A stretch of 64,000 nt of DNA from Lachnospiraceae bacterium MA2020 (GTDB lineage: Bacteria > Bacillota > Clostridia > Lachnospirales > Lachnospiraceae), in NCBI GenBank assembly GCA_000746015.1, contig JQKK01000012.1:62001-126000 (forward strand), written 5' to 3'. Below, piece after piece: positions 43,382 to 50,498 of the stretch; the stretch's first letter is position 1, and every line of letters begins with the position of its first letter. A program made the translations under genes and the position numbers. The notes beneath the pieces are model-generated. The model saw nothing but the letters and a program-made list of their open reading frames with translations. It did not search any database and had not been told where the DNA came from.

Positions 43382-45217
43382 ATGAAGGGAACAGAGAAGA
43401 GAATGGCAGAGTATTTACATCCGGGCGTATATACTGAAGAATACGATTCCGGCCCAGTACCAATGCAGGGTGTAAGCACAAGTACGGCAGGCTTCATTGG
43501 TCTGGCAGAGCGCGGACCGGTCATTGGTGCTCCACAGTTTGTAACCAGCTTTGCTGATTACAAGAGAACCTACGGAGGATACTTGAGCGACACAAAATAC
43601 GGAGATGCAAGATTTCTTCCGTATGCAGTAGAGCAGTTCTTCCTTAATGGCGGTTCAAGGGCGTTCATTATGAGAGTTGCACCTGATGATGCAAAAGCAT
43701 CAACCGGAAGTCTGGGAAGTCTGCAGATCACGGCTGCAAATCCGGGAGAATGGGCTGATCGTGTAGTAGTAACAGCTGTTCCGGCGTCAAAAGCAAGGAC
43801 TCAGGTTTACAGCGCAGATGGCGCAGACCTCACTGTTAAGAGTCCTGATGGATTTAATCCGGGAGATGTTGTTGAGCTTTATGATGGAAAAACAAAAGCT
43901 TATGCAACAGTAAAGAGTGTAATCGATAAAACCGTTACACTTGATGCTCCACCTACGATCGATGTAACCGATAAGGCCATGGTCAGCCAGAAATATATGC
44001 GCACTATGGAAATTACGGTTACTGTAAAACTTGATGATACGGTAGAGACATTTACGGAAGTTAACCTTAATCCGTTCTCAAACAACTATATCGGAGTAAG
44101 GTCTGAGAAATCCGATCTTGTACGCTTTACCGTAAAGACAGAAGGATCCGCTCCGGCAGCTGCTCCTCCAAAAGAGAACAAAGATGCCAAGGATAATAAG
44201 GACGGTAAGGATAAAGATTCTAAGGATGCTAAGCCTCAGCCACAGCCGGCACCGGCAGCAGGAAATGGTCCAAAGACACCATTTTCACAGGTCGGAGGAA
44301 ATGGAGATAGTGTTTCAGTTACACTTTCAGGTGGATCTGAAGGCTCTGTCGGCAATGTTACAGCTGATGTTTATATCGGCGCTGACAATGGCCCTGGTAA
44401 GAGAACCGGACTTCAGGCATTTATCGAAAACAATAATGTATCAATAATGGCCATCCCGGGCGTTACTGATCAGACAGTTCAGTCAACACTCATTGCTTTC
44501 TGTGAGAATAGGGCAAGCTGCTTTGCAGTTCTTGATATCCCTATCGACAAGAAGAAGGTTGATGAGATTGCTACTTTCAGAGATGCTTATGACAGCACAT
44601 ATGCAGCAATCTATCATCCATGGCTTGAGATGCTTGATCCATTATTGAAGCGTACAACATACTTCCCGCCTTCGGGTGCTATGGTTGGAATATATGCAAG
44701 AGTTGACACTGACAGAGGTGTTCATAAGGCTCCTGCAAATGAGACAGTTTCCGGATGCACAGGACTTTCCTGCAATTTCAATGATGCAGAGCAGGATATC
44801 CTTAACCCGATAGGTGTAAACCTTATAAGGGCATTTACGGGCAGAGGAATTCGTGTATGGGGCGCAAGGACATTGAGCTCTAACGGACTTTGGAAGTATA
44901 TCAACGTAAGACGTCTCTTCATCTATGTAGAGCAGTCTATCAAGACAAATACCAACTGGGTTGTATTCGAGCCAAATACCGAGGTACTCTGGACAAGGGT
45001 AATCGGAACTATCGAGTCCTTCCTTGCAACCTGCTGGAGAGATGGAGCTTTAGCCGGCACATCACCTGATCAGGCATTCTTCGTAGAGTGCGGTCCAACG
45101 ACTATGACTCAGGATGACATAGACAACGGACGTCTCATCTGCAACATAGGTATCGCACCTGTTAAACCGGCTGAATTTGTAATCTTCCGCATTACTCAGA
45201 AGACTGCAACAAGCTGA
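43382..45217 (+). CDS. Contractile sheath protein of the eCIS
   Basis: This is the sheath subunit, which polymerises around the inner tube and contracts to drive it forward. The N-terminus EYLHPGVYTEEYDSGPVPMQGVSTSTAGFIG is the classic sheath start of Afp/PVC and T4-like systems. The conserved C-terminal domain includes RGIRVWGARTLSS, YINVRRLFIYVEQSI and ICNIGIAPVKPAEFVIFRI. The length (611 aa) is in the upper sheath range. Residues about 255-300 form a lysine/aspartate- then proline-rich low-complexity insert, probably surface exposed. Only one sheath gene is present, whereas Afp has three. ATG 43382 is used; ATG 43403 gives the family start MAEYLHPGVY and is a good alternative. Confidence 0.95.
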   Translation: MKGTEKRMAEYLHPGVYTEEYDSGPVPMQGVSTSTAGFIGLAERGPVIGAPQFVTSFADYKRTYGGYLSDTKYGDARFLPYAVEQFFLNGGSRAFIMRVAPDDAKASTGSLGSLQITAANPGEWADRVVVTAVPASKARTQVYSADGADLTVKSPDGFNPGDVVELYDGKTKAYATVKSVIDKTVTLDAPPTIDVTDKAMVSQKYMRTMEITVTVKLDDTVETFTEVNLNPFSNNYIGVRSEKSDLVRFTVKTEGSAPAAAPPKENKDAKDNKDGKDKDSKDAKPQPQPAPAAGNGPKTPFSQVGGNGDSVSVTLSGGSEGSVGNVTADVYIGADNGPGKRTGLQAFIENNNVSIMAIPGVTDQTVQSTLIAFCENRASCFAVLDIPIDKKKVDEIATFRDAYDSTYAAIYHPWLEMLDPLLKRTTYFPPSGAMVGIYARVDTDRGVHKAPANETVSGCTGLSCNFNDAEQDILNPIGVNLIRAFTGRGIRVWGARTLSSNGLWKYINVRRLFIYVEQSIKTNTNWVVFEPNTEVLWTRVIGTIESFLATCWRDGALAGTSPDQAFFVECGPTTMTQDDIDNGRLICNIGIAPVKPAEFVIFRITQKTATS

Positions 45218-45269: not shown

Positions 45270-45761
45270 ATGGCTATTGGTTACCCATATAGAGTCTTTC
45301 GGTACGTCGTTGCAATAGACGGAATCAGCCGTGCTGGATTTTCGGAGGTTTCCGGAATGAATTTGTCAACTGCCGTAGTCGAGTATCGTGAAGGCGATGA
45401 TTTAAGAAATACACCGAGAAAATTACCGGGACTTACGACCTTTGGTAATGTTACTCTCCGTTGGGGCGTTTCTGATGATGTTGAGTTCATGGAGTGGATC
45501 CATTCTGTTTCACCTGACAATCAGGCAGGACCGACAGGACTTGTTCGCCATGACATAACTATCACACTTATCAATGATGCAGGTCAGACAACAGGTCCTG
45601 CATGGACACTCATCAACTGCTGGCCGGTAAGCTACACTATTCCGGATCTTTCAGGTCTCGGAGGTGAAGTTGCCATTCAGTCGATCGAGATCTGCCACGA
45701 AGGTATCTGGACAACGACCGGAGCATCACCTGGACCAGCTGGAACACCGTCACCGATCTAA
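45270..45761 (+). CDS. eCIS inner tube protein, paralogue 1 (gp19-like)
   Basis: This 163-residue protein has the phage T4 gp19/Afp1-like tube fold. It starts AIGYPYRVFRYVVAIDGISRAGFSEVSGM and carries the typical GDDLRNTPRKLPGLTTFGNVTLRWG and the late WTLINCWPVSYTIPDLSGLGGEVAIQSIEI. It should form the stacked hexameric rings inside the sheath. It is 52 bases after the sheath gene, behind GTGAGG, which matches the normal sheath-tube order. A large hairpin follows it. Two further tube-like genes lie at 46425 and 46909. This one, next to the sheath, is the best candidate for the main tube subunit. Confidence 0.94.
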   Translation: MAIGYPYRVFRYVVAIDGISRAGFSEVSGMNLSTAVVEYREGDDLRNTPRKLPGLTTFGNVTLRWGVSDDVEFMEWIHSVSPDNQAGPTGLVRHDITITLINDAGQTTGPAWTLINCWPVSYTIPDLSGLGGEVAIQSIEICHEGIWTTTGASPGPAGTPSPI

Positions 45762-45865: not shown

Positions 45866-46234
45866 ATGCAGACAGAATTTGAGTTTACCTTACCGAAGGG
45901 GTATGTGGATTCATCGGGGGAAGTTCACAAACATGGGAAGATGAGACTCGCTACGGCAGCAGATGAGATACTGCCGCTCAGGGATCCGCGGGTTCAGTCG
46001 AACTCGTCCTATCTCACAATTATTCTATTATCAAGGGTGATAACACAGCTGGGAACACTGCCTGTAATTACAAATCAGGTAATAGAGCAGCTTTTCACCA
46101 TGGACTTGGCATATCTTCAGGATTTTTACCAGAGAATTAATATGAGTGACATGCCTTCATATACTGTGACTTGTCCGGAATGCGGCAAACAGCATGAGGT
46201 GCCGCTGGATTTTTTATTGAGTCAGGGCTTGTAA
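45866..46234 (+). CDS. Small eCIS tail-assembly protein, zero-frame product
   Basis: This protein has 122 residues, behind a GGGAG site. It opens TEFEFTLPKGYVDSSGEVHKHGKMR and continues with a helical region (SYLTIILLSRVITQLG). A C-terminal CPECGKQHEV element is one half of a possible zinc knuckle, with only two cysteines. Proteins of this type sit between tube genes in many contractile injection loci and are presumed assembly factors. Position and size parallel the tail-assembly chaperones of phages, which lie between the tube and tape-measure genes. Near its end the gene contains the heptamer T TTT TTA in the correct phase, so a longer product with the following frame is predicted. Confidence 0.85.
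   Translation: MQTEFEFTLPKGYVDSSGEVHKHGKMRLATAADEILPLRDPRVQSNSSYLTIILLSRVITQLGTLPVITNQVIEQLFTMDLAYLQDFYQRINMSDMPSYTVTCPECGKQHEVPLDFLLSQGL
46210..46216 (+). promoter_or_regulatory. Candidate programmed -1 ribosomal frameshift site
   Basis: The heptamer T TTT TTA fits X XXY YYZ exactly in the zero-frame phase (GAT TTT TTA). A -1 slip moves translation into the frame 46216-46410, six codons before the zero-frame stop. A modest downstream stem (GAGTC 46219-46223 with GGCTC 46250-46254, and GGG with CCC inside) could stimulate slippage. This is inferred and untested. Confidence 0.65.
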
Positions 46235-46410
46235 GCTATCCCCAGGACAGGCTCTATAAAGAAATGGCGTTTCTTGCTTACTATCTGCACTGGTCCCAGG
46301 ATGAACTCATGAACATGGATCACAGGGAAAGAAGACGCTGGTGCAGCGAGATATCTGCGATAAACAAGAAACTCAGTGGAGATGAAAACAAGAAATTTGA
46401 GTTTAAATAA
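46216..46410 (+). CDS. DUF6760-like extension, predicted -1 frameshift product
   Basis: This frame of 64 codons has the features of the short DUF6760 proteins found in contractile injection loci: SYPQDRLYKEMAFLAYYLHW followed by MDHRERRRWCSEISAINKK. The conserved part begins before its first ATG (46264), and no ATG, GTG or TTG exists upstream of it in this frame after the preceding stop, so an independent start is hard to find. A -1 shift at 46210-46216 enters it exactly and would give a fusion of 117 + 64 residues. If instead it starts at ATG 46264, about the first 16 residues, including the YPxDRLYKE block, would be lost. The next tube gene starts 15 bases after its stop. Confidence 0.75.
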   Translation: MESGLVSYPQDRLYKEMAFLAYYLHWSQDELMNMDHRERRRWCSEISAINKKLSGDENKKFEFK

Positions 46411-46424
46411 AACGGAATATTTAT

Positions 46425-46907
46425 ATGGATAATGTAAAACTATATAAATCTTTCCGCTTTCTGGTTTCCATGAGCGGAGAAGGTTATACGAAAGACGGGG
46501 AGGCCGTTCCGATGGACGCTGCTTTTTCTGAGTGTTCGGGAATAAGGGTCGTAAGCCATGTGCTGAAAATGCGGAGTGGAGCTGACGAAAGAGGCGTGCA
46601 GGGTATAATCCCGGCGACTGTAGAGTACAGTAATCTGACTCTGACCAGAGGAGCGACTAAAAGTCATAAGTTTCTTGAATGGGTGTTTGCGTGTCTTCCA
46701 ACGTTTGAGGCCGGTCCGTCAAAGCCAGTAAGGAAGACGATACATATCACGGTTTTGGATGATCAGCAGAAACCCGGATTAGTATGGGCTCTTTACGGCG
46801 CTTATCCCGTTTCATATTCACTCGGGAATATGAATGCAATGGGAAATACAACCCTTTTGGAGTCTATCGAATTTGCATACAGCGGACTTGGAAGGTCAGA
46901 GGTCTGA
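46425..46907 (+). CDS. eCIS inner tube protein, paralogue 2
   Basis: This 160-residue protein has the gp19-like tube fold. It starts KLYKSFRFLVSMSGEG and contains FSECSGIRVVSHVLKMRSG, VEYSNLTLTRGATKSHKFLEW and VWALYGAYPVSYSLGNMNAMG. It differs markedly from the first tube protein and probably forms a specialised ring, such as the tube base or the junction with the spike, as the minor tube paralogues of Afp and PVC do. Assignment to a position is an inference. The next tube-like gene starts two bases after its stop. Confidence 0.9.
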   Translation: MDNVKLYKSFRFLVSMSGEGYTKDGEAVPMDAAFSECSGIRVVSHVLKMRSGADERGVQGIIPATVEYSNLTLTRGATKSHKFLEWVFACLPTFEAGPSKPVRKTIHITVLDDQQKPGLVWALYGAYPVSYSLGNMNAMGNTTLLESIEFAYSGLGRSEV

Positions 46908-46908
46908 T

Positions 46909-47346
46909 ATGAAGGATCAGCAGGATATAACTAAATATGTTTCGGGAGCATATTTTGAAGTAAAAATAGGGGATATAAGCGGGCTCAGCGGCAGGTTTAC
47001 TTCGGTCACAGGGCTTGGTATGGCACTTCAATATGAGACATATTTTGAGGGGGGAAGTATGTCGCCACATTTTCTCGTGGGAAACGCAGTACCGCAGCAA
47101 CTTGTGCTGGAGCAGGGGACAGTAACTGAGTCGGACGGCTTTTCGAAGTGGATAAAAGAGGTTAACAGCGGTGTAAGCATTCCGACGAGCGGAGATATAA
47201 TTTTGAAAGATGCCGCGGGGAATAAGATGAGGAGCTGGCATATTAATGATGCTGTACTGGTAAGCTATACGGGTCCTGAATTAAACAGCAACCAGCCACA
47301 GGTTGCCGTTAGCAGGGTAGTATTGATGTATGGAGGATGTACATGA
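46909..47346 (+). CDS. eCIS inner tube protein, paralogue 3
   Basis: This third tube-like protein has 145 residues. It includes YFEVKIGDISGLSGRFTSVTGLGMALQYETYFEGG, then QQLVLEQGTVTESDGFSKW and MRSWHINDAVLVSYTGPELN. Together these outline the strands of the gp19 fold. The frame extends upstream to ATG 46834, inside the preceding gene, but ATG 46909, one base after that gene's stop and behind AGAGG, gives the right N-terminus. The last few bases overlap the large repeat protein. A role as a tube-initiating ring at the baseplate is plausible by analogy with Afp5, and is an inference. Confidence 0.88.
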   Translation: MKDQQDITKYVSGAYFEVKIGDISGLSGRFTSVTGLGMALQYETYFEGGSMSPHFLVGNAVPQQLVLEQGTVTESDGFSKWIKEVNSGVSIPTSGDIILKDAAGNKMRSWHINDAVLVSYTGPELNSNQPQVAVSRVVLMYGGCT

Positions 47347-50300
47347 GGGATGATGGTTCTATTGCTTTGACAAAATTAAATATGTCTGTAATAGATTCAT
47401 CCGCAATTATTTCCTCGGAGGCATTACTTTGCGCAAGTTTTGCCCAGGGGATAATAGATAAGACAAAAGAGAATACACCTTTTTTTGCATTTTCAGATCT
47501 GGAATTCCTTGAAGAAGACGAAGGAAAGCCGGAGAAAAATAATGCAGAAAAACAGGTAAATCTCAACTATGATCTGACTTTTGAAATGGTGATAGCGCAT
47601 CTCGAGGCGCTGGAGAGACAGAGCGCAGCGGCGAATGCATCTGAAAGAAAGATCTTAAGGGAGACAATTGAGAGAGAAAGGAGACTTCTTGGAGGTAGTC
47701 TCAGGATACTTGAGAAAAATTCAAGATATTCCAATTCGAGTGTCGTACGGAGATATCTTGAGAAACTTGCAGCAAGACAGCTTAGGGAAATAAGGGACAG
47801 AGAAAAGAGTTTAAGTGCGAGATCGGAAAATACTTCGGTAGAAACCAAAGAATTAAAACTGGTTCATAAATATAAGAGTAATTCTTTAGAAGAGCTGATT
47901 AAAAACGAAGAAAAGATCAGGACGCTTACAAATAAACTTACAGACAGGATAGAGCGACAATCAGAAAATAATGTATTAAGAGAAATATTAGGGGATATAA
48001 GCGAAGACTATAATATAAATGTTCTTTCACCGGAAAAAAGAAAAAGCATTGCAGATGTTTTTAAGTCAGCAGGTATAAATACCGGGAATTTTTTTGGCAG
48101 AGAAAATGGAAGTAGTGCGTACAGCTTTGGAGAACTTGAAAATCTGGTTCAGATCCGGGAAAGTGACGAGCTTGCAAAGTCAACAAAAAGAGCAATTGAC
48201 AGTCAGATGAGAGAAATCAGGAGCCTTAAAGAGATTTTGAGCTCCGTTGATATAAATACACCTTTACATGTGAATTACAACAGATCGGCTAAAAATTCAT
48301 ATACATATAACGGAAAGCCGGCTGATAGTTCATATTCACATAATGGAAAGTCGGCTGATAGTTCATATTCATATAATGGAAAGTCGGCTGATAGTTCATA
48401 TTCATATAATGGAAGGTCAGCTGATAGTTCATATTCACATAATGGAAGGTCAGCTGATAGTTCATATTCACATAATGGAAAGTTGGCTGATAGTTCATAT
48501 TCATATGATGGAAGGTCAGCTGATAGTTCATATTCACATAATGGAAAGTCAGCAAAAAGTCCAGTTAATGGAGGCCCTGCTAAGGGAACATACTTTAGAA
48601 ATGGCAGAGAAGGTAAGATATTTGTATATAACAATCTGAGAAATGTACTTGAACCGATAAGCAGGGAAATACTGATAAATTCTATAATCAGTGGAAAGAG
48701 CGGCATCGGAAGCAGCACGAATATAACAGGATCTGACAGGGTCAGCACCACTGTTTTAAGAGAGATATTACCTGAGGCCGGGACAAGGCTGATAGATGAG
48801 ATCAAGAAACAGTACAGTCAGACAGGAATGACTTTTTCTCCGGTAGAGATGGAAGATTTAACAGTCAGTCATGAGATGGAGGAAAAAGTTAAAGAGGCTG
48901 CAGCACTTTCAAAAAAGCAGATAAGAGAAGTACGCGAGCTTAAGAAAATTCTTGCCGATGCTGAAATGAAAAGTCCTTTTGCAAAAGAGAATGAAAAGGA
49001 TAGTAAACAGGATAGTAAAAAGGCTGAAGAGCGCGAAAAAAGTGAGACTGACAGGAAATCGAGATTAAAGAATTCAAAAGCAGATCTTACGGAATCAAAT
49101 ATCTCGGAGATAGTATCAAAAGAGGCTGCTAACAGAATTGACAGAGCAATTGATAAAAATATCACCGAAAAGACAAGGGAATTTGTCAGATATAGGGATA
49201 TCAGGAGCAGCATTGAGAAAAGTCTGGAAGATAACAGATCAGTAAGTAATAGCCTAAGTTCTCTTACACGGGAAATTGCAGTTAGAAATCTCATGAAGGG
49301 AAAGGATAAGGATGACTTAAGGAATATTACAAAACTGGTTCACAGCTACTATCCGTGGAATGATACAGAGGCGACAGGTGATATAAGGGAAAAATATACC
49401 TACAGAAAAATGGGATATCAGCCTCCGAAACTGGAGGATATCATTATTTCGGATGGTAAGGAAAGCGATAAAGAAAAACTCAGGCAGCAAGCTGAAATTG
49501 GGGCAAAAAAAGAGCGTGAGATCAGAGAATTAAAAGCGACTCTTGCGGCAAGGACTAATGAAGAAGATAGAAAGTCTGAGGCAGAAAAGAGAAAGGAAAA
49601 AGAAGAGAAAAGAAGGGAAAAAAGAGAAGAAGATATAAGGCGTTCTATTGAGATAAACGAAAAGATAAGAAACGCTTTATCGCCAATAATCAGGGAAATA
49701 ACTACGATCAGGCTTATGAAAGGAAATCCTTATAACGGATCAAACAATCTCTCAAAGCTTGTAATGTCAGCACTTCCGGGGACGGAGACAGGTACCATAG
49801 ATGCGATCAGAGAAAGATACGAGAGCTCTGTGATGGGTTTCAGGCCGGAAAAACTGGAAGATCTCCTGATAGAGAAGAAGGATGGAAAAGAGTACGGCAG
49901 GCTTAAAAGCGAGCTTAAAAAAATAGAAAATATCAAACTACCGGAGGCAAGGCGTGAAAGAGAAAAGGCCGAGCTGAGAAGGGTAGTAGGAAGAAAAAAA
50001 GAAAATATCGAAGGGAAAAACTATCCTCCGATCAATATTGAATATGGAACTGCCTATCCGGATCTTTTGAAAAACGCTGTCAAGGAGCAGGTGGATCTGA
50101 GACTTACAGGGCTTGAAAATGAAATAAATGAGATGGCTCCGAGAAATGCAGGACTTGAGAGAGAGAAAAATGAAATGACATTGAGCGGTGTGAACAGGAT
50201 AAAGCCGGTCAGCAGATCATTGAGTACTTCAGAAAAATTCATTAGGGGTGAAGTCGATGAAACTGTTGTGGAAGATAATCTCAAGCCTAAAGAGAAGACA

Positions 50301-50498
50301 TGGGTAAATCCTATGTTTTCACCATACAGGATGGATAATCTCCAGTTTAAGGAGAAAAATAAAGAAGAGGAAAAGAAGGAGTCAGAGAAAAGCAGGGGAA
50401 ATCTTTCTGACGCAGAGATAAGACGTACGGCAGACAAAGTTTTTAAGCTTGTGGAAGAACGTATTAAGAAGGAAAGACGCAGAATAGGAAGGATATGA
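47343..50498 (+). CDS. Large repeat-rich, highly charged protein in the tape-measure position of the eCIS
   Basis: I do not recognise this protein of 1052 residues. It is very rich in lysine, arginine and glutamate and appears mostly alpha-helical. Residues 323-399 hold seven perfect-length 11-residue repeats (NGKSADSSYSH type). Four degenerate domains of about 100 residues are visible. Three share a helical segment near residues 430, 640 and 785 (MKG or SGK-type loop) followed by MGxxPxKLED-type and REIRELK-type blocks, and an earlier related region ends MREIRSLKEIL. No membrane helix is seen. Position between the tube and LysM genes matches the phage tape measure; cargo is another option. 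ATG 47343 is chosen, six bases after GGAGG; ATG 47337 abuts the site. Confidence 0.85.
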   Translation: MRDDGSIALTKLNMSVIDSSAIISSEALLCASFAQGIIDKTKENTPFFAFSDLEFLEEDEGKPEKNNAEKQVNLNYDLTFEMVIAHLEALERQSAAANASERKILRETIERERRLLGGSLRILEKNSRYSNSSVVRRYLEKLAARQLREIRDREKSLSARSENTSVETKELKLVHKYKSNSLEELIKNEEKIRTLTNKLTDRIERQSENNVLREILGDISEDYNINVLSPEKRKSIADVFKSAGINTGNFFGRENGSSAYSFGELENLVQIRESDELAKSTKRAIDSQMREIRSLKEILSSVDINTPLHVNYNRSAKNSYTYNGKPADSSYSHNGKSADSSYSYNGKSADSSYSYNGRSADSSYSHNGRSADSSYSHNGKLADSSYSYDGRSADSSYSHNGKSAKSPVNGGPAKGTYFRNGREGKIFVYNNLRNVLEPISREILINSIISGKSGIGSSTNITGSDRVSTTVLREILPEAGTRLIDEIKKQYSQTGMTFSPVEMEDLTVSHEMEEKVKEAAALSKKQIREVRELKKILADAEMKSPFAKENEKDSKQDSKKAEEREKSETDRKSRLKNSKADLTESNISEIVSKEAANRIDRAIDKNITEKTREFVRYRDIRSSIEKSLEDNRSVSNSLSSLTREIAVRNLMKGKDKDDLRNITKLVHSYYPWNDTEATGDIREKYTYRKMGYQPPKLEDIIISDGKESDKEKLRQQAEIGAKKEREIRELKATLAARTNEEDRKSEAEKRKEKEEKRREKREEDIRRSIEINEKIRNALSPIIREITTIRLMKGNPYNGSNNLSKLVMSALPGTETGTIDAIRERYESSVMGFRPEKLEDLLIEKKDGKEYGRLKSELKKIENIKLPEARREREKAELRRVVGRKKENIEGKNYPPINIEYGTAYPDLLKNAVKEQVDLRLTGLENEINEMAPRNAGLEREKNEMTLSGVNRIKPVSRSLSTSEKFIRGEVDETVVEDNLKPKEKTWVNPMFSPYRMDNLQFKEKNKEEEKKESEKSRGNLSDAEIRRTADKVFKLVEERIKKERRRIGRI
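48309..48539 (+). repeat. Seven tandem 33-bp coding repeats
   Basis: Seven units of 33 bases (48309-48539, exactly 231 bases) encode NGKSADSSYSH-type 11-residue repeats inside the 1052-residue protein. Degenerate half-units flank both sides. Most differences are single bases (CAC or CAT, AAG or AGG), indicating recent expansion. All six frames remain open across the array, which explains overlapping false reading frames. Confidence 0.95.

Follow-up and report, generated by a model that had tools for sequence, protein, structure and literature searches.

A predicted -1 frameshift linking a tail-assembly chaperone to DUF6760 in contractile injection systems of bacteria and archaea

The window analysed in this study was a stretch of 64,000 nucleotides from Lachnospiraceae bacterium MA2020 (contig JQKK01000012.1, positions 62,001 to 126,000 of the forward strand). 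A profile scan of the window cluster identified a sheath, three gp19-type tubes, a CIS_tube/LysM protein, a Phage_base_V spike, gp25 and baseplate J, together with a hub protein whose best match was YQBQ-like (2.4e-6). A Pvc16_N protein, a PAAR/DUF4280 protein and an AAA ATPase are encoded on the same contig, just outside the window. By gene content (sheath, tube, LysM/CIS tube, spike, gp25, baseplate J, Pvc16, PAAR and AAA ATPase together) the cluster is an extracellular contractile injection system (eCIS), a machine resembling a syringe that stems from a virus tail. Phage head or packaging genes were not seen among the 29 context ORFs scanned (9, 10 and 10), several of which had no match. 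A 1019-aa MORN-repeat protein is encoded immediately ahead of the Pvc16-like gene, just outside the window (L157:724-3780).

The coordinates of the features discussed below are given in Table 1. The tail-assembly-chaperone (TAC) gene is preceded by a tube gene and followed by two more, after which comes a 1053-aa protein unmatched in Pfam. An earlier note on this DNA had placed a tape-measure-like gene right after DUF6760; this proved wrong, since tube genes 2 and 3 come between. As listed, the ORF of tube gene 3 shares 74 nt with tube gene 2 (46834-46907), and its real start is probably at MKDQQ. Within the candidate tape measure, positions 48285-48550 hold a 33-bp unit (SADSSYS(H/Y)NG(K/R), 90% matches) repeated eight times in tandem, possibly a length-variable region.

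Table 1. Features at and around the predicted slip site (window coordinates)
Feature	Coordinates	Strand	Evidence
Tail sheath gene	43382..45217	+	Phage_sheath_1 1.5e-22
Tube gene 1, gp19 type	45270..45761	+	Pfam 1.2e-38
Zero-frame TAC gene, 122 aa, CPECG knuckle at C-terminus	45866..46234	+	ORF; phrog_508
SD-like element GAGGTG, 8 nt ahead of heptamer, possible stimulator	46196..46201	+	sequence
Slippery heptamer T TTT TTA, -1 phase	46210..46216	+	sequence; comparison across loci
-1 frame extension, 64 codons + stop, DUF6760, P2 E'-like half	46216..46410	+	translation; Pfam; hhalign
Predicted stem-loop, 46224-46231 pairing with 46248-46255, 8 bp, 7-nt spacer past heptamer	46224..46255	+	pair counts
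Tube gene 2, gp19 type	46425..46907	+	Pfam 1.2e-26
Tube gene 3, gp19 type; true start probably nearer 46909	46834..47346	+	Pfam 1.8e-20
1053-aa charged protein, candidate tape measure by position	47337..50498	+	no Pfam match

The zero frame of the TAC gene reads GAT TTT TTA (D F L117) at 46208-46216, and the heptamer lies in the exact phase for tandem -1 slippage. After a slip the reading would continue as ATT GAG TCA GGG..., translated IESGLVSYPQDRLYKE..., and the -1 frame after the site reads IESGLVSYPQDRLYKEMAFLAYYLHW... in the window. This frame is open from 46198, contains no ATG, GTG or TTG ahead of the conserved YPQD codon at 46237, and extends for 64 codons to 46407, with its stop at 46408-46410. 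Its product was identified as DUF6760 (PF20546) with a Pfam E-value of 2.7e-16 and 59.8 bits against a gathering cut-off of 27. The predicted fusion would be of 117 + 64 = 181 residues and the unslipped form of 122. On all these points the earlier reading of the locus held.

DUF6760 was searched for in several draws of genomes. It was present in 27 of 61 genomes of relatives (own genome included), in 9 of 348 taken from the phylum, in 10 of 149 from the phylum of an actinobacterial record and in 6 of 148 from the phylum of a Methanosarcinales record. Two further draws gave 2 of 148 and 1 of 149, and another gave 6 of 249, five of the six being the same places as matches of the 348-genome draw. 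The scan of genome contigs yielded 69 DUF6760 loci; tblastn against plasmids matched 35 records, 17 of which were retrieved. From a total of 149 loci, one without upstream sequence (L044) and 18 duplicates were removed, leaving 130, and L095 and L144 were excluded as misanchored, leaving 128 for analysis. The zero-frame stop of L136 was set by hand. Close relatives are over-represented in this set, which clustering corrects only partly. Among the plasmid records, the PGAP annotation of DUF6760 in Nostoc (L127:2992-3162) and the start annotated inside the conserved domain in Rhodococcus (L132:1516-1659) look doubtful; no DUF6760 gene is listed around 1501-1638 of the Brasilonema locus (L134), where the gene table is incomplete.

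Slip sites were searched for in the final 48 nt of the zero-frame ORF. A -1-phase heptamer was found in 117 of the 128 distinct loci and in the other two phases in 7 and 3 (116, 7 and 3 of 130 loci before the two exclusions and the one stop correction); most relatives thus keep a heptamer in the same phase, which the earlier note had proposed to check in other eCIS loci. Canonical motifs alone (X XXY YYZ) gave 85, 6 and 1 for the three phases, and 725 other ORFs of the same loci, used as a control, scored 2.3, 2.9 and 3.0%, the first figure being that of the -1 phase. The first sites of the 117 loci were 85 canonical heptamers (T TTT TTG, 29; A AAT TTT, 27; T TTT TTA, 25; G GGA AAT, 2; G GGA AAC, 1; G GGT TTT, 1) and 32 G-rich ones (GGGGGAA, 22; GGGGGAG, 6; GGGGGGA, 3; GGGGGGC, 1), the latter having joined the motif set post hoc, after the data had been seen, and their count being no independent test. 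GGGGGAA has been reported independently: in the available part of the source, it accounts for all of the approximately 1000 'fivetwo' motifs found by PRFect in SEA-PHAGES data, mostly in tail assembly chaperones that were annotated and not experimentally tested (PMC10885494). The codon ahead of GGG ends in G in 32/32 G-rich loci, though it encodes seven different amino acids. Loci were also grouped into clusters at 70% DUF6760 identity and recoded synonymously, keeping the amino acids and using each locus's own codon usage. An in-phase site was observed in 30.8 of 36 clusters, against 3.7 (sd 1.8) expected; for canonical motifs alone, the values were 11.4 observed and 1.5 (sd 1.1) expected.

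The type of heptamer differs between lineages. T TTT TTA/G is found in the window, in 4 of the 25 same-genus relatives with a match and in Cohnella, and A AAT TTT in the remaining 21 of these relatives. G GGA AAC/T occurs in Haloferax and in two loci from the phylum of the Methanosarcinales record, and G GGG GAA in two other loci from that phylum. G GGG GAA, GAG or GGA is carried by loci of Paenibacillus, Nostoc, Brasilonema, Kovacikia and Pseudanabaena, and also of Rhodococcus, Streptomyces, Paraburkholderia, Rhizobium and Treponema. A single slip phase is kept with different encoded residues (GAT TTT TTR, NTA AAT TTT, NNG GGG GAR, TCG GGA AAT), which argues for selection acting on the nucleotides. 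In three archaeal loci (L128, L145 and L146) the C-terminal part of the chaperone is lengthened, from zinc knuckle to slip site, by long insertions of low complexity, and despite these G GGA AAY is still in phase at the end.

In one clade of 27 loci, of the Flavonifractor type, the zero-frame stop lies 113-155 nt ahead of DUF6760. These loci had been read as depending on a start codon alone (start at codon -3, apparently no heptamer), a reading that was rejected on upstream inspection: TTTTTTG was present 144-168 nt upstream of the anchor in 24 of the 29 Flavonifractor-type loci checked, and the linker that came after it stayed open in the -1 frame. A canonical heptamer was found near the zero-frame stop in 22 of the 27 long-linker loci. 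In the other five (L042, L047, L051, L062 and L063) GAT TTT CTN replaces GAT TTT TTG with the -1-frame linker retained; these heptamer-less loci count against a frameshift. Variation across the 27 loci was scored by -1-frame codon position. The first 18 codons past the zero stop gave 0.29/0.24/0.50, which is coding-like, and the remaining linker 0.36/0.38/0.37, which carries no codon-position signal (whole linker, 0.34/0.33/0.42; DUF6760, 0.06/0.05/0.28). A start codon was found in the first 60 nt of the linker in only 2 of the 22 heptamer-bearing loci. The codon-position signal just past the zero stop suggests that at least the beginning of the long linker is read in the -1 frame, well upstream of the start at codon -3.

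The presence of start codons bears on whether DUF6760 could instead be translated on its own, ribosomes reinitiating at the zero-frame stop or close to it with a 4-nt overlap and using ATA, ATT or GTA where there is no ATG, GTG or TTG. We regard this as an unlikely account of the window, which has none of the three codons ahead of the domain. No ATG, GTG or TTG lies between site and domain in over half of the site-bearing loci (64/117), namely 44 of 63 class I short, 2 of 22 class I long-linker and 18 of 32 G-rich loci. In the remaining 53 of the 117 a site and such a codon are both present, and initiation may contribute. Counted over the stretch from 75 nt before the zero stop, 51 loci had a site and no start, 66 a site and a start, 10 a start and no site, and one neither. 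Relatives with their own start and no heptamer, which the earlier note had named as evidence against a frameshift, were looked for and make up only a minority, 10 of the 11 site-less loci. Almost every site-less locus thus carries a start, in keeping with reinitiation as the alternative, and some lineages probably do reinitiate. A Tumebacillus locus (L084, 4618-5186) has DUF6760 with neither a heptamer of the set nor ATG, GTG or TTG before the domain, and counts against the frameshift reading.

Reinitiation is also favoured by GTGA overlaps in several Streptomyces plasmid and other actinobacterial loci, by an ATGA overlap in Haloferax, and by annotation of DUF6760 from an overlap codon reading CTG in S. 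cadmiisoli and, by PGAP, from an overlap start in Nostoc where the sequence is ATA; the GGGGGA of G-rich loci could in addition serve as a Shine-Dalgarno sequence. Against it, initiation leaves unexplained why the canonical heptamer keeps a constant phase as its type switches between lineages, the long-linker -1 frame is constrained far upstream of the available start, and in Paenibacillus the would-be start positions read TTA or CTA. Joining of the frames by transcriptional slippage on the run of six T in the window, rather than by ribosomal slippage, is very improbable and was put aside: the equivalent loci carry A AAT TTT, G GGA AAT or G GGG GAA at this place, which are not long homopolymer runs, and six T are short for polymerase slippage. 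That the DUF6760 frame has decayed or goes unused, the heptamer being a by-product of conserved D-F-L residues, which GAT TTT TTA does encode, is scarcely credible, given that DUF6760 is strongly conserved with third codon positions changing most in the long-linker clade, that the sites are rarely recreated by synonymous recoding, and that A AAT TTT loci encode N-F.

Two elements flanking the site might stimulate a -1 frameshift. In class I loci, SD-like 5-mers are concentrated at positions -15 to -10 relative to the site. The class I codons leaned towards GAG (51/60, 33.4 expected) and GTG (37/58, 13.8 expected), in a test whose codon usage came from short loci and which is inflated by relatedness. 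The few G-rich loci that could be scored lean the same way (GAG 6/7, 3.3 expected; GTG 6/8, 1.9 expected), and the SD-related codon bias is therefore not specific to class I. Downstream, a stem with a 5-7 nt spacer was examined over 10 columns in 24 T-type loci: 80% of cells were paired, compared with 27-50% for slid versions, and both sides changed in six of the pairs, a number that 0/500 shuffles reached. RNAalifold alone retained only four pairs. The downstream fold of the window itself was not more stable than its shuffles (z 0.05 and 0.69; 60-nt score 0.05). Mean z-scores of the downstream 60 nt were -1.06 for class I (sem 0.30, 12 clusters; control stretch, -0.13) and -2.18 for the G-rich class (sem 0.46, 21 clusters; control stretch, -0.03). 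As stimulators, the SD-like element and the downstream stem are only suggestive.

Frameshifting by -1 in tail-assembly-chaperone genes is textbook knowledge in phages, and both halves of the eCIS gene were compared with phage families. The zero-frame protein belongs to a TAC family, phrog_508 ('tail assembly chaperone'), matched by the window protein at E 7.1e-8 over residues 6-91 and by 25/25 zero-frame homologues scanned (best 2.1e-10). Phage_TAC_7 was matched by 2 of the 25 (best 5.6e-5, 23.5 bits against a cut-off of 25) and, in Pfam, not by the window protein; other Pfam matches of the zero-frame proteins were weak (Gp41_Mu, 8/25, best 0.038; T4_baseplate, 4/25, best 0.018), besides zinc-ribbon models. 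Members of the DUF6760 set matched Phage_P2_GpE (5/25, best E 0.0083), phrog_10636 (16/25, best 9.7e-6; window 0.069), phrog_18729 (13/25) and phrog_1756 (3/25). P2 E' itself matches PF06528, phrog_1756 and phrog_10636, the last two in common with the DUF6760 set, and P2 E matches Phage_TAC_7 and phrog_103. The curated Pfam cut-offs for the P2 E/E' family (PF10109 and PF06528) were missed, and by Pfam the relationship appears to be distant rather than one of membership. Alignment of DUF6760 with six P2-like E' proteins by hhalign gave a probability of 86, an E-value of 5.1e-6 and a score of 30.5, against a best score of 16.4 in 200 column shuffles. BLASTP of the window DUF6760 against P2 E' was not significant (E 3.9), the chaperone profile gave no alignment with P2 E (probability 0.1), and neither protein found a relative by tblastn at E 0.1 in 50,697 phage records; the link to P2 therefore rests on profiles. 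Solved structures gave no relevant match for the chaperone or the DUF6760 alignment.

The P2 record annotates E+E' as a -1 frameshift, at a site reading GGT TTT TTG, and the same site scan found T TTT TTN in phase in five of six P2-like phages. P2 shares with the eCIS loci the order of tube, chaperone and short -1-frame partner, the slip site T TTT TTG, and an E' protein to which DUF6760 aligns over 30 columns through an HW...(M/L)...E...W pattern. It differs in that P2 E belongs to phrog_103, whereas the eCIS chaperone belongs to phrog_508, carries a CPxCG knuckle and, in the window, lacks a Pfam TAC_7 match; P2 is also a phage and the eCIS a domesticated injection system. T4-like phages likewise have a tail assembly chaperone of a contractile tail, and Vladimirov, Gautam and Davidson are said to have reported in 2022 that their TAC genes use a mechanism other than frameshifting. 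In the part of the source available, lambda gpG/gpGT is described as a chaperone extended at a low level in the -1 frame, the extension connecting the tape measure with the tube (PMC5009743). The eCIS loci resemble it in having a chaperone with a predicted -1 extension, and three archaeal ones carry G GGA AAY; no lambda family was among their Pfam and PHROGs matches. With the actinophage TAC genes, as far as these are described in the accessible part of PMC10885494, the actinobacterial, cyanobacterial, Paenibacillus-type and archaeal eCIS loci share the heptamer GGGGGAA and its phase. Unlike in the actinophages, the motif also precedes an overlap start in several eCIS loci and may act as an SD there too.

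The phrog_508 match and the alignment of DUF6760 with P2 E' make the locus, very probably, an eCIS counterpart of the phage TAC cassette (G/GT, E/E') made by a -1 frameshift. Most ribosomes would stop at the end of the zero-frame ORF and give a 122-residue chaperone (G/E-like); a minority would move back by one base at T TTT TTA and give a 181-residue protein with DUF6760 at its C-terminus (T/E'-like). If lambda gpG/gpGT is a guide, the tape measure would be coated by the short form, and the fusion would bring in tube subunits. Slippage itself, its rate and the role in assembly are what we infer. The programmed -1 frameshift put forward in the earlier note stands as a prediction very well supported by comparison, given that the phase of the heptamer is kept, that its type varies by lineage and that the two halves resemble the phage cassette. 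We also lean, with more reserve, towards the wider view that nearly all DUF6760-bearing contractile injection systems, bacterial and archaeal, build a frameshifted two-form chaperone, the site having been kept or reinvented (T TTT TTR, A AAT TTT, G GGA AAY, G GGG GAR) during divergence and overlap-start reinitiation being the main fallback.

The earlier note knew of no description of this mechanism for an eCIS, and none was found by searches of the open-licence literature on eCIS and contractile injection systems or on DUF6760. A frameshift in an eCIS chaperone is absent from the accessible portions of PMC10885494, PMC5009743, PMC3711429, PMC8718954, PMC9022992, PMC12210884, PMC13277306 and PMC11126660, and from those of PMC13195805, PMC13222765, PMC8528098, PMC10269795, PMC10966104, PMC3925092 and PMC11495950. 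Phages are known to use the mechanism; for injection systems with DUF6760, in bacteria and archaea and with several slip motifs, it appears not to have been described in the literature searched. If the prediction is true, DUF6760 would gain a function where none had been assigned, that of the tube-recruiting half of a chaperone, and public eCIS gene lists would lack or misannotate it, as in the plasmid records of Nostoc, Rhodococcus and Brasilonema. On the wider view, tube assembly in the machines would be governed by the ratio of short to long chaperone, as it is in phage tails. If the prediction is true, these domesticated machines would also have kept the ratio control of the phage, which bears on how their tubes are assembled and their length is set.
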